From: Candidatus Zixiibacteriota bacterium
Lineage (GTDB): Bacteria > Zixibacteria > MSB-5A5 > GN15 > FEB-12
NCBI GenBank assembly: GCA_022571985.1
Contig: JACZWU010000002.1
Coordinates: 479,673 to 543,672, forward strand
Length of the DNA: 64,000 bases
Direction of reading: 5' to 3'
In this document: positions 31,336 through 57,266 of the stretch, piece by piece
Layout: each line of letters starts with the position of its first letter
Position numbering within the stretch: the first letter of the stretch is position 1
The notes under the pieces: model-generated
The model's input: only the letters and a program-made list of their open reading frames with translations
Told to the model about the DNA's origin: nothing
Databases searched by the model: none
Made by a program: the position numbers and the translations under genes

Positions 31336-32934
31336 TTACCTCTTCACATACCTGGCCGGGTCGGTGATAGTCGCATTCAGCGCTGAGGCGGCCGCCGTCG
31401 CAGGGGAACAGTAGTAGACGCTGTCTCCGGGTATTTGCTCTATCGAATTTGTCAAAGTAGTTTCAGTATCAGAGAACAAAGAGCTGTCGTGTACCATGGC
31501 GATTTCGCTGCCCGGGTTCATAACCATAGCGCCCGACTCGACAAAAACCCGAATCAAGCCTTTCTTGAGCGCTTCCAAGTATACAGCTCTGGAGGCCGGA
31601 CAGATAAAAAGCCGGCAATCGGGGTGGACAGTATTTCCTTTTAAAACATCAGCAGCAATACGCAAATCATCAAAGCGGCCGTTGGCACAGGTGCCCAAAA
31701 CGACCTGCTTAACCGTCTGTCCTTCAAGTTCCTGCGCAGTTTTAAGTTCAATTTCTTCGTTTAGAGCATAAACAGTCGGCCGGATTTCGCTGATATCGAG
31801 TTTAACTGTATTTTCATAAATGGCGTTTTTGTCGGGCTGAATTGGCGCAAATCCGGCCACAGTTCTGCCGGTCAGATATCGCCGGACTGTAGAATTATAG
31901 GGACAAATAGCAGCTCTGGCACCCAGGAGCTGTGTCATATAGCAGAGAGTGAAGCGTTCGCTGACGCTAAGTTGGGAGACGGCCAGTCCGTTAAATTCTA
32001 TGACTTTTCCGGCGCAGACATTTTGATCAAGAACAGCTACTACCGCCGAGGCAATATCACGCGCCGAAACTCCACGTGAGCGCCGGCCGTTTAATTCGAC
32101 TTGAATTGTAGCAGGAACTTCTATTTCAAGCTCACCATCCGCCCAGGTTCTGGCAGCCTCTTCGGGAGTGACCGGTATGGCAAATGCTCCGACACAACCA
32201 TAAGCCATAACACCTTTTTCGCTGCCCAGAATAAACTGCCCGGGAATTAAGTGCGCTTTTTCAAGCAGCACCTGAGAGTAGTTACCCTCGCGCAGGTCAT
32301 AGACAGTCTTTAGTCCCTGCCGTCTGATAAACTCGCCGGACGATTGTCCGTTGCTGTTGCTGTCTTTGAGCCTATAGCCTTCACTCAAAATAATTTTGCC
32401 GGCGTTCCAGACATAGCCCTGGCTGATTTTACTGAATTCGCTGATTACCTCACCTGCCCCGATATTGACAGCTACCAGATCGGGTTCGACTTTGACCTTG
32501 CTGCCGACCTTGACTCTGTCTTCGTCCGCAGCCCGCGCCAAAATTTTCTGTACAATAGTCTGCTCGCCGTATAACGAATGCGACAGAGATGATATTCTTG
32601 ATCCCGGGAAATTAAGTTCAAGCTGTTCAAGTTTAAGAAAAGCAGGTTTTTCTCTTATATCATAGCGCCGGCGCCAGTTGTAAAAAGCAGCTTTGGAAAT
32701 GCCCAGTTCCATGCCGCATTTTTCGTCGTCGCCGTAGCGCTCCCATAAAGTCAGTATCTCCCGGTCGGAAAATTTGGGCAGCGAATACTTTGGGACATTT
32801 TTCTTACGCCGCCAGTAAGCCACCAGATAAGCCGGCACACCGCCTAAACGTTCGCCAATCTTTTCATCAGTCTTGTATAGTTTCTGAAGTTGAACCAGTT
32901 CGGATTTGGTTGGTATTTTGGTTTTGGGCGCCAT
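31336..32934 (-). CDS. LeuC/aconitase-family pseudoenzyme with N-terminal duplicated HTH-like domain
   Basis: LeuC-like skeleton (GTCANGRFDDLRIAADVLKG, CPASRAVYLEALKKGLIRVFVESGAMVMNPG, SPATAAASALN..ITDP) with catalytic/Fe-S motifs replaced; two YGDDEKCGMELGISKAAFYNWRRRYDI-like HTH units at N-terminus. Confidence 0.85.
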   Translation of the reverse strand: MAPKTKIPTKSELVQLQKLYKTDEKIGERLGGVPAYLVAYWRRKKNVPKYSLPKFSDREILTLWERYGDDEKCGMELGISKAAFYNWRRRYDIREKPAFLKLEQLELNFPGSRISSLSHSLYGEQTIVQKILARAADEDRVKVGSKVKVEPDLVAVNIGAGEVISEFSKISQGYVWNAGKIILSEGYRLKDSNSNGQSSGEFIRRQGLKTVYDLREGNYSQVLLEKAHLIPGQFILGSEKGVMAYGCVGAFAIPVTPEEAARTWADGELEIEVPATIQVELNGRRSRGVSARDIASAVVAVLDQNVCAGKVIEFNGLAVSQLSVSERFTLCYMTQLLGARAAICPYNSTVRRYLTGRTVAGFAPIQPDKNAIYENTVKLDISEIRPTVYALNEEIELKTAQELEGQTVKQVVLGTCANGRFDDLRIAADVLKGNTVHPDCRLFICPASRAVYLEALKKGLIRVFVESGAMVMNPGSEIAMVHDSSLFSDTETTLTNSIEQIPGDSVYYCSPATAAASALNATITDPARYVKR

Positions 32935-33419
32935 CAGTTCATAAATTCTTTTCTTAACTTTTTGTATATGGGATCAAGCGGCAGCGAAACAACTTTGGTT
33001 TTGCCTATTATCGGCATGAAGTTGGTATCGCCAATCCAGCGCGGGACTATGTGCATATGCAGATGTCCGGGCACGCCGGCACCAGAAGCCTTGCCCAGGT
33101 TCATACCGAGATTCATCGAGGTAGGCTTGAGAGTTTTTTTTATTATTACCACGGTCTTTTGCAGCAACTCAAAGAATTCCGCCGCTTCATCGGCTTTCAG
33201 ATTTTCAATCTGTCCGACATGTCGAATCGGCACTATCATGGTGTGACCGGCGTTGTAAGGGAACTTGTTTAAGATGACCAGCGCCTTTTTGCCTCGATAA
33301 ATTATCAAATTTTTGACAGAATCTTTCTCTTTGAGGCGCTTGCAAAAAATGCAGCCCTTCTCTTTTTTACTCAAAATGAAGCCGGCCCTCCAGGGGGCCC
33401 ATAGTTTCTCATCAGACAT
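32934..33419 (-). CDS. HIT family protein
   Basis: CIFCKRL, PYNAGHTMIVPIRHV, GVPGHLHMHIVPRW (HxHxHxx). Confidence 0.93.
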   Translation of the reverse strand: MSDEKLWAPWRAGFILSKKEKGCIFCKRLKEKDSVKNLIIYRGKKALVILNKFPYNAGHTMIVPIRHVGQIENLKADEAAEFFELLQKTVVIIKKTLKPTSMNLGMNLGKASGAGVPGHLHMHIVPRWIGDTNFMPIIGKTKVVSLPLDPIYKKLRKEFMN

Positions 33420-33795
33420 AATAGACTACTATACAAAAATTTACGGCGGCATTCAATACTGGCCGGGGTCTTTAATGTAACAGGCTGTCCTGCAGGTAGT
33501 TATCTGCGGTTTATTTCTTGTTAAAGCGAGGCACCAGTCAATTAACCTCTAGTTTTAGTAAGTTATTATTAGGCAATGGATTGAAAGAGGGAAATCAGCT
33601 AACAGGAAACCCGAATTGGCAGGGCTATTTTTTGACTGTCTTGACAGGCAGGATGAAAGTGTAGTTGGAAGCCCGGCAGTCAGCCCGCCTGGCTCAAATA
33701 AGATTGCGATATGTCAGCTGGATGGACAGCAAAGAGAAGCAAATGCCTTGCTCTCTTTTTGTTGAAAGGGGCGGCAATATTGGCATATTTTTTTT

Positions 33796-34767
33796 GTGCC
33801 AGTTGATTTTTCAAACCGTTTGGAAAAAGATGAAAAGCTACGGCAAATGTTACTGCCGTACTGCCGTCTTAAACCTGGCGATATCTGGGTCGACCCGGCC
33901 GGCAAACATCTGATCGGTTGTGGTGATGCCGCGGACTCTGGTTTTGTAAAACAGATTCACTCAAAAGCATCGCCACCAACTCTGGCCATTCAGGACCCGC
34001 CATATAATCTTGTTTTTGGTAAGAAAATGCCGGTTGCTGAATTTATTGAGTGGTGCCAGAACTGGATTTCACATTGCCGCTCTGTCTTAAATAAAAACAG
34101 CGCCCTGTATATCTGGCTGGGGGCGGATCAGAAAAATCATTTCAGACCATTACCTGAGTTTATGAGCATGATGTCGACGACAGATTTCAAATCACGTTCG
34201 TTTATCACTATGCGCAATCAGCGCGGCTACGGCACTCAGCAAAACTGGATGGCTGCCCGGCAGGAATTACTCTACTACACTTTAGGAATACCGAAATTCA
34301 AAGTCAGTTATACTGATATTCCCAAAGTTTTAAAGGGCTACTACAAAGAAATAGATGGACGAAAACTCGAAAACATAGAGCGCAGCAAATCACCCAATAT
34401 CCGCGCGGGCAATGTCTGGATTGATATTCAGCAGGTTTTTTACCGTATGGAAGAAAACGTCAATGGCTGCTTCGCGCAAAAACCGCTCAAAGCAATTGAA
34501 CGTATAATAGAAAGCTCATCAAGTGTGGGAGAGACTGTTACAGATTTGTTTGCTCACTCCGGGACGACATTAATCGCCTGCGAAAAACTTGGTCGCAGAT
34601 GTGTAACTTTTGATCTGGACCCGATTTTTGCCGAGATTTGCATCAGACGCCTTGAAAGATTTCGCGGAACCGGCAAGACTGGCTGGCAGCTGGGACATCC
34701 CTTTGAAAGAGAACTTAAAAGAAAATTGTCCGATTCGCTCAGCAATCAAATAGCCGCAGTAAAATAG
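33796..34767 (+). CDS. Site-specific DNA methyltransferase (N6-A/N4-C, DPPY type), GTG start
   Basis: LAIQDPPYNLVFGK motif IV; TVTDLFAHSGTTLIACEKLGRRCVTFDLDP motif I; KPLKAIERIIESSS. Confidence 0.85.
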   Translation: MPVDFSNRLEKDEKLRQMLLPYCRLKPGDIWVDPAGKHLIGCGDAADSGFVKQIHSKASPPTLAIQDPPYNLVFGKKMPVAEFIEWCQNWISHCRSVLNKNSALYIWLGADQKNHFRPLPEFMSMMSTTDFKSRSFITMRNQRGYGTQQNWMAARQELLYYTLGIPKFKVSYTDIPKVLKGYYKEIDGRKLENIERSKSPNIRAGNVWIDIQQVFYRMEENVNGCFAQKPLKAIERIIESSSSVGETVTDLFAHSGTTLIACEKLGRRCVTFDLDPIFAEICIRRLERFRGTGKTGWQLGHPFERELKRKLSDSLSNQIAAVK

Positions 34768-54458: not shown

Positions 54459-57266
54459 TTACCCCACCATCCCTCTCAGTACGGTCTGAAGTATCCCGCC
54501 GTTGTTGTAGTAGTCGACTTCAATCGGGGTGTCGAGGCGGGCAACGACGTTAAAGGTCTTGTTGCTTTTTGATGGGTTGTCAGGAACGTTGCCTCCTTCG
54601 TTTTCCCAATCGCCAAGAATTTCAGATTTTGACTTAGACCCTTCGACTCCGCTCAGGGTGGCGTTTTTCTGCCCTTCGTCCCCATTGGCTTCACTCAGGG
54701 CAGTTCCGCTCAGGGTGACAGCCTTGACTGTCAATTCATGCTTCGGTCCTAAGTCGCCGGGTAGGTCGATAGCAAAAGTTTCGTGGCCGGTCAGGCCGAG
54801 TGATTCACGTGACTCGCCCGGCATAAACTGCAGCGGCAAAACACCCATCCCAATCAGATTACTGCGGTGAATGCGTTCAAAAGATTCAGCAATGACAGCC
54901 TTTATTCCCAACAGAAAAGTTCCTTTGGCGGCCCAGTCGCGCGATGAACCCATGCCGTAATCTTTACCGGCCAGTACGACTAACGAAATGCCGTCAGATT
55001 TATATTTCATGGCCGCTTCATAAATTGTCATCTGAACGCCTGTCGGCAGATAAATCGTCAGGCCTCCCTCGGTGCCGGGCGCCAGCAGATTGCGCAGCCG
55101 GACATTGGCGAAAGTTCCGCGCGTCATAACTCGGTCGTTGCCGCGGCGCGAACCATAGGAATTAAAATCCTTAAATTCCACACCGGTCTCAAGCAGGTAC
55201 TTGCCCGCCGGAGAATCTTTCATGATAGCGCCGGCCGGTGAGATATGGTCGGTCGTTATCGAATCACCTAACATACAGAGCACGCGGGCATTTTTAATAG
55301 AGGCAGCGCCGGGAGATTTTAATGGCATATTTTCAAAAAACGGCGGATTCTGGATATAGGTCGAGCTTTCTTCCCAGGGGTAAAGGTCGCCGCCCTTGGC
55401 AGGGATAGCATCCCAGGCCGGGTTGCCGGAAAAAACGCCGCTATAACGTTTCTTAAACATCTCAGGCGAAACCGAGGCCGCGACAATTTCGAGAATCTCA
55501 CTCTGTGCGGGCCAGATATCTTTTAGATAAACCGGCTGGCCATCGCTGCCTGTGCCCAGCGGTTCTGTGGTCAAATCAATATCAGTTGTCCCGGCTAAAG
55601 CGTAGGCGACAACTAACGGGGGAGAAGCTAAGTAATTGGCTTTGGTCAGCTGATTGATGCGTCCCTCAAAATTACGGTTACCGGAAAGGACCGCCGAGGC
55701 TATCAGATTACCGCTTTCGATAGCATTTACTACCGCTTCGGGCAGCGGTCCGGAGTTGCCGATACAGGTCGTGCAGCCAAATCCGACATTATGAAAGCCA
55801 AGCTGCTCCAGCGAAACCATCAGTCCGGCTTTTTCCAGATAGTCAATGACCACCCGCGAGCCGGGCGCCATTGAAGTCTTCACATACGGTTTGACATTCA
55901 AGCCTTTTTCGACTGCTTTTTTAGCCAGCAGCCCGGCGGCTACCAGTACCAGCGGGTCGGAAGTATTAGTGCATGATGTAATAGCCGCAATGACCACTAC
56001 GCCATGGCTGACTTTTGATTTGTCGCCGTTTTGAATTTCAACCTGTTTTCCCAATTCATCCTCAGGTAGCTGAAAGCCGCGTTCTGTAAAGGGCTTTGTC
56101 AAAAGTTCGTTAAAATCTTTCTTCATGCTTCTTAGAGGAACTCTGTCCTGCGGACGTTTGGGACCGGCTAAACATGGCTCGACAGTTGAAATATCAAGCT
56201 CAAGAAAATCTGTAAACTCAGGCTCAGTTGATGCATCGCGAAAGAGCATTTGCTCTTTGGCATAACGTTCTACTAAGTCGATTTGCTCGTTGCTTCTGCC
56301 GGTAAGTTTCAAATAATCAAGGGTGTGCTGGTCGATAGGGAAAAAGCCTATAGTTGCACCATACTCCGGCGCCATATTAGAAATCATGGCCCGAGACGGC
56401 AGCGGCAGCTGGTCAAGGGCTGGTCCGTAGTACTCAACAAATTTGCCAACCACTCCTTTATTGCGCAGCATCTGGGTGATTGTCAAAACCAGATCCGTAC
56501 CGGTGACGCCGTCTTTTAACTGCCCGGTCATCTTAAAACCGATGACTTCCGGAGTAAGCATATAAATTGGCTGACCTAACATGGCCGCCTCGGCTTCGAT
56601 TCCACCGACTCCCCAGCCGACAATGCCCAGGGCGTTTATCATAGTGGTGTGGCTGTCGGTACCAACCAGCGTATCCGGCAGAGCTGTGCCGTTTTGGTTT
56701 ATGACGCACTTGCCCAGATATTCTAAATTTACCTGATGGCAGATTCCGGTAGCAGGCGGCACGACTTTGAAATTCTTAAAGGCTTCTTTGCCCCAGTGTA
56801 AAAATTCATAGCGTTCGTAGTTTCTTTCAAACTCTTTTTTGGCGTTTATTTCGAGTGCCTGCCGCGAGGCAAAGGCATCGACCTGCACCGAATGGTCCAC
56901 CACCAGATCAACCGGCACCAGCGGATTTATTCTCTGTGGGTCGCCGCCAATCTTTTTCATAGCGTCACGCATAGCGGCTAAGTCGACTACTAAAGGCACG
57001 CCGGTAAAATCCTGCAATAGTACTCTGGCCGGGCGGTAGGCAATTTCGACATCGCCGACATTTTTAGCATTGTATTCGGCCAGTTTTATGACGTCATCTT
57101 CGGTAACAGTGCGGCCGTCAATATTGCGCAGCAGATTTTCCAGCAGAACTTTGATAGAATAGGGCAGCTTGTCTATTGAGCCGAATTGATTGAGCGAATC
57201 AAGGCGGTAAATTGTTATTTCACCGGTACTGGTCTTTAGTTTGCCTTTTGCCTCAAAACTGCTCAT
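54459..57266 (-). CDS. acnA: Aconitate hydratase A (with in-frame insertion near C-terminus)
   Basis: [99 protein letters not shown]. Confidence 0.97.
54637..54720. repeat. REP-like repeat cluster inside acnA coding sequence
   Basis: gacccttcgactccgctcagggtg + cccttcgtccccattggcttcactcagggc + agttccgctcagggtgaca; 84 bp, frame-preserving. Confidence 0.85.

Follow-up and report, generated by a model that had tools for sequence, protein, structure and literature searches.

A LeuC-like pseudoenzyme fused to a tandem helix-turn-helix in Zixibacteria: a putative enzyme-derived transcription regulator

Introduction

What is the function of a protein that has the body of an isopropylmalate isomerase large subunit, has lost the residues on which catalysis depends, and begins with what looks like a DNA-binding domain? 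The question is raised by a gene near the middle of a 64,000-nucleotide stretch of a Candidatus Zixiibacteriota genome (contig JACZWU010000002.1; hereafter the window). The original prediction, made from the sequence alone, was of a dead dehydratase fold of the LeuC/aconitase family fused to two helix-turn-helix (HTH) units, possibly a metabolite-sensing regulator. Several DNA-binding regulators derive from enzymes, among them MocR/PdxR (from an aminotransferase), the ROK repressors (from a sugar kinase), NadR, BirA and PutA, and the route from enzyme to transcription factor is usually inferred from its end states. To our knowledge, no regulator of this kind belongs to the aconitase superfamily. 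In the open-access papers that we searched we found neither a DNA-binding regulator of this superfamily nor an earlier description of an HTH-fused LeuC/aconitase or of its Zixibacteria family.

Results

The C-terminal part of the protein (features are listed in Table 1) gave full-length matches over residues 125-526 to HMMs of LeuC/HacA large subunits (PRK00402, E=1.7e-82; hacA_fam, 1.8e-76; Pfam Aconitase, 9e-48), with a score on the large-subunit model of 277 bits, below the curated cut-off of 385. Foldseek superposed the domain on the isopropylmalate isomerase large subunit 4kp1 (E=2e-42, TM 0.89 on the target). The LeuC skeleton that had been proposed is thus present from end to end.

Table 1. 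Position of the fusion gene, its domains and the upstream elements in the window
Feature	Position	Strand	Basis or remark
HTH-LeuC fusion gene, 532 aa	31336..32934	-	ORF, HMM matches, orthologs in 122/133 phylum genomes
LeuC/HacA-type aconitase domain, residues 125-530	31345..32562	-	HMM, Foldseek, motif columns
HTH unit 2, residues 57-90, ...YGDDEKCGMELGISKAAFYNWRRRY	32665..32766	-	AlphaFold2 three-helix unit; weak HTH_23/HTH_50/HTH_Tnp_1 matches in most members
HTH unit 1, residues 10-44, ...KTDEKIGERLGGVPAYLVAYWRRKK	32803..32907	-	AlphaFold2 three-helix unit; strongly conserved across the family
HIT-family gene, Ap4A-phosphorylase-like	32934..33419	-	HIT E=1.7e-16; adjacent in 80/80 loci
Likely -10 element TATAGT	33428..33433	-	about 9 nt upstream of the HIT start codon; sequence
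Proximal candidate operator TAACTACCTGCAGGACAGCCTGTTAC	33477..33502	-	motif found without position prior
Distal candidate operator CAATCCATTGCCTAATAATAACTTAC	33558..33583	-	81 bp further upstream than the proximal site

We aligned the window protein with 18 canonical large subunits, in which the twelve residues that we tested are conserved with almost no exceptions. Every substitution named in the original prediction proved to be real: DHxxPA is replaced by EGYRLKD, DSHT by SEKG, CGPC by SEIA and NRNFxGR by NSIEQIPGD, and of the three cluster cysteines only C417, in GTC, is left. The protein therefore lacks the DH, DSH and NRNFxGR catalytic motifs of LeuC/HacA enzymes, and the loss of the catalytic residues and of two cluster cysteines also sets it apart from active aconitases with a [4Fe-4S] switch of the IRP1/AcnB type. 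As anticipated, no LeuD adjoins the fusion gene in the window. Its genome (2.93 Mb, 97.6% complete) has no canonical LeuC, and no LeuD besides the C-terminus of an aconitase; the search for a second, canonical LeuC, which had been suggested as a check, returned the fusion gene and this 952-aa aconitase only. The aconitase, the sole other aconitase-family gene of the genome, lies at 54822-57056 (minus strand) of the window, about 22 kb from the fusion gene. The substituted residues support the view that the C-domain of the window protein is a pseudoenzyme.

In AlphaFold2 models built with family alignments, the N-terminal region formed two successive three-helix units (helices 10-20/23-29/35-44 and 57-67/70-77/81-90; pLDDT about 80-97), whether the full-length protein or the N-domain alone was modelled (mean pLDDT 88.7 and 91.3, respectively). 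Structural modelling, named beforehand as a test that the HTH reading might fail, thus returned the two units that had been proposed. HTH_23 and HTH_Tnp_1 of Pfam recurred among the members (32/33 and 31/33, respectively), all below the curated cut-off. In Foldseek searches with the N-domain all matches were weak; the best was the tandem-HTH DNA-binding region of the Mos1 transposase (E=0.07, prob. 0.93), with c-Myb and SETMAR at lower ranks, and a comparison with profiles of solved structures gave no meaningful match. The N-domain is basic (net charge +8 over 107 aa; pI 9.7 for residues 1-95), and its identity of about 60-90% across the phylum places the HTH units far beyond chance. As modelled, the fusion has the HTH domain expected of a transcription regulator.

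The fusion was found in 122 of 133 genomes of the phylum and in 78 of the 79 good ones, in almost all cases as a single copy. A scan of the genomes of 85,462 species, with a 6-row alignment of the N-domain as the query, returned 79 loci, all in Zixibacteria or in unresolved MAG records. Nearly all of these records are labelled Candidatus Zixiibacteriota, Zixibacteria or GN15; the remaining few carry the labels FCB, Calditrichota, Ignavibacterium or plain 'bacterium' MAG, which is probably label noise. The HTH fusion and the pseudoenzyme reading are supported phylum-wide. The fusion gene of one relative (G034:C69:2930-4549) has an in-frame TAA, from a truncation or an assembly error.

The fusion gene starts with the ATG at 32934, on the minus strand, and overlaps by 1 nt (TGATG) a HIT-family gene directly upstream. 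The HIT gene occupied this position in each of the 80 loci whose neighbourhoods we compared and in all of a set of 183 loci tested, which are partly redundant. Its catalytic motif, H.H.H.., is intact in 114/114 proteins. The best curated model for the HIT protein was the actinobacterial ATP adenylyltransferase; its match to the ATP adenylyltransferase model had E=2e-42, yet lay below the cut-off.

To follow the loss of the active site we scored twelve catalytic and cluster residues in 117 distinct members. All twelve are kept in 11 members and the cysteine triad in 22, whereas all three cysteines are missing from 54 members and all twelve residues from 24; different lineages have lost different residues. 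The proposed check on homologs thus showed an HTH fusion kept across the phylum over a catalytic set that runs from 12/12 to 0/12. Four intact members that we tested scored 542-595 bits on enzyme subfamily models, above the curated cut-offs of 385-410. Among members with enough downstream sequence, LeuD follows the fusion gene directly in 10/10 intact ones, in 4/10 of those that keep only the cysteine triad and in 5/82 strongly eroded ones. This association is confounded by ancestry: it is not significant when shared ancestry is discounted, and an independent-pairs test of the cysteine triad against LeuD had too few pairs and no power. In a tree that we rooted on canonical LeuC, early and short branches lead to the intact members, as far as a quick tree with a long-branch warning can be read; on the rooted tree the full residue set changed 2 times and the cysteine triad 8 times. 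An enzyme fold joined to a DNA-binding domain, with an erosion series inside one orthologous family, is the pattern of an enzyme-derived regulator.

Divergence of the HIT protein served as a clock with which to compare the two domains. Among pairs at 55-65% HIT identity, intact members stood at 0.68 for the N-domain and 0.74 for the C-domain, and eroded members at 0.78 and 0.40; in one intact pair (L184/L166) the N-domains are 90% and the C-domains 97% identical. Column entropy was about 0.7-1.3 in the N-domain and about 1.3-2.9 in the C-domain. Within the genus of the window, dN/dS was 0-0.02 for the near-invariant HTH and 0.08-0.19 for the C-domain, so both domains are under selection, the HTH far more. 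Erosion thus came with a constraint switch, in which the catalytic domain relaxed, still at a dN/dS of about 0.1, and the HTH became near-invariant, at 0-0.03. In the intact enzymes, the alignments indicate that the balance between the two domains is reversed or even.

The dead domain of the window's own family has also gained residues. C344, C440 and C509 are each present in 42-43 of 48 proteins, and all three in 37, and the arginines R287, R351, R352, R425 and R462 in 45-47 of 48. These residues are absent from the intact fusions, and where the three cysteines stand the intact enzymes have V/T/A. Conserved residues gained in a dead domain point to a new role and not to decay. Possibly, the C344/C440/C509 triad forms a new metal or redox site.

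An expectation-maximization search without a position prior, over 41 non-redundant HIT upstream regions of the own family (f1), found a motif of about 26 bp, YAACnnnTTnnnnnnCAAnnnGTTA, which can be read as a direct repeat of YAAnnnnTT with a pitch of 15 bp (LL 302, against 107-114 in shuffles). In this family, it is located in most cases between about -82 and -96 relative to the HIT start. When a leave-one-out model was trained on the proximal sites only, the next best site fell 80-87 bp further upstream in 17 of 41 genomes, as compared with a mean of 1.2 and a maximum of 3 in shuffles. The evidence for the paired element comes from the own family; relatives in the same order (f4) have, by eye, a different, AAACCnTTTG-like element. 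Many relatives in f1 have a TATATT-like -10 at a distance of about 9-15 nt from the HIT start codon; a -10 in such a position suggests a near-leaderless mRNA. Some genomes with an intact fusion have instead a longer HIT 5' UTR with a GGAG-like site.

In 51 genomes, the matches of a single-site model were near E~1; since the motif holds only about 17 bits, single-site targets are inseparable from chance. With a double-site model, the best match of the genome was the HIT operon in the window's own genome and in several related ones, which were partly training genomes. Across the genomes searched we saw no second double-site target that was convincing, a surprising result for an HTH that is nearly invariant. 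One double-site match (G008:C214) was discarded as a target: it falls in an AT-rich sequence on the downstream side of a gene and appears to be a chance match. In the upstream regions of some relatives (loci L029, L032, L150 and L154) we also noted DnaA-box-like sequences (TGTGGATAA/TTATCCACA) near the HIT start codon and near the distal site.

Discussion

We consider it likely, on comparative sequence evidence, that HTH-LeuC is an enzyme-derived, non-catalytic transcription regulator with putative DNA-binding activity, and that it descends from a bifunctional enzyme. The ancestor of the phylum would have had the large subunit of an isopropylmalate/homoaconitate-type isomerase, working with LeuD and carrying a tandem three-helix HTH as a fused domain, with the gene order HIT - HTH-LeuC - LeuD in the operon. 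Most lineages would later have lost LeuD and the Fe-S and catalytic residues, while the HTH became almost invariant. The two HTH units would most likely bind the paired CAACnnGTTA-like boxes upstream of their own HIT operon, and perhaps other promoters as well, with the aconitase fold serving as scaffold and effector domain. The conserved paired element is a plausible candidate for an autoregulatory operator; that HTH-LeuC binds it is suggested to us by how common autoregulation is. Two composite sites about 83 bp apart would make looping or cooperative oligomers plausible. The data show the fusion and its distribution, the erosion series, the association with LeuD, the constraint switch, the HIT linkage and the conservation of the paired element; within this reading we infer DNA binding, the role of the element as the HTH-LeuC site, autoregulation, the sensing of a ligand and the sequence of evolutionary steps.

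Alternatively, the eroded protein could still be an enzyme whose reaction or metal site has changed, with its HTH serving for autoregulation only. The C-domain is indeed under purifying selection (dN/dS about 0.1), and three conserved cysteines as well as several arginines are new in the own family. In addition, an alignment of 54 members has E313 and D293 invariant and R327 almost invariant, and 22 of the 54 match AcnX weakly; aconitase X, which departed from aconitase, is a precedent for a changed reaction. We nevertheless regard this as unlikely, because the lineages have lost different catalytic residues, down to none of twelve in 24/117 members, a small subunit is missing, and conservation is far lower in the C-domain than in the HTH. 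It also seems conceivable, with a still smaller probability, that the target of the tandem HTH is not promoter DNA but RNA, with post-transcriptional action in the manner of IRP1/AcnB, or a partner protein, for instance HIT. IRP1 and AcnB are RNA-binding aconitases, and the HIT gene is always adjacent; however, IRP1 binds RNA by its aconitase body and not by an HTH, and the double element lies upstream of the likely promoter and so would be untranscribed in a near-leaderless mRNA.

That the gene is a degraded copy drifting towards loss is scarcely credible, even though the active site is eroded and LeuD lost: it is present in 78 of the 79 good genomes, its HTH is near-invariant, and dN/dS is well below 1 in the two domains; on dN/dS and presence we reject both a pseudogene and drift. 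The single degraded copy under relaxed selection, set out beforehand as the finding that would overturn the prediction, is likewise rejected, although homologs with intact cluster ligands exist, because the erosion is old, common to most of the phylum and accompanied by purifying selection on both domains. The obligatory HIT partner, the intact relatives that have LeuD, the switch of constraint and the paired upstream element go beyond the original prediction.

By analogy, the closest kind to which the regulatory reading would assign HTH-LeuC is the enzyme-derived transcription regulator (MocR, ROK, trigger enzymes). Like MocR/PdxR, ROK, NadR, BirA and PutA, it joins a DNA-binding domain to an enzyme fold that is active in some families and inactive in others; unlike them, it has an aconitase fold, a tandem HTH and a HIT partner. 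It shares its fold end to end with LeuC/HacA (28% identity between the window protein and M. jannaschii MJ0499, 4kp1), and its intact members pass the curated cut-offs of these enzyme subfamilies, but LeuC/HacA enzymes have no HTH head, and the window copy is without catalytic residues, two cluster cysteines and LeuD. The moonlighting aconitases IRP1, AcnB and CitB also put an aconitase fold to use in gene regulation. They bind RNA, are active enzymes in another state and have no HTH, whereas the fusion has a separate HTH and a dead site. The HIT partner shares an intact HIT motif with the Rv2613c-type Ap4A phosphorylase, and differs from it in scoring below the model cut-off and in being an obligate neighbour of HTH-LeuC. 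As far as the open-access papers searched show, the aconitase-superfamily version with a tandem HTH, an obligatory HIT partner and a visible conversion series is new.

One orthologous, single-copy gene in one phylum thus presents intact, half-eroded and fully dead forms together with a measurable constraint switch, and the series makes the order of LeuD loss, cluster loss, HTH freezing and residue gain testable with a few natural proteins. It also gives the uncultured Zixibacteria a first candidate for a regulator common to the phylum, together with a candidate operator. A fuller account, which we offer tentatively and think less likely than not, would have the family preserve every stage from an Fe-S isomerase (HTH-LeuC with LeuD) to a dead transcription factor, the cluster site being lost and the new cysteine triad and arginine set of one family forming a new sensor; HIT would link this regulator to Ap4A metabolism, and the system would be phylum-defining.

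The HIT operon of the window shares its upstream region with a divergent gene for an orphan N6/N4-adenine DNA methyltransferase (33796-34767, plus strand), and a homolog of this gene lies near the HIT operon in 28 of 80 loci.
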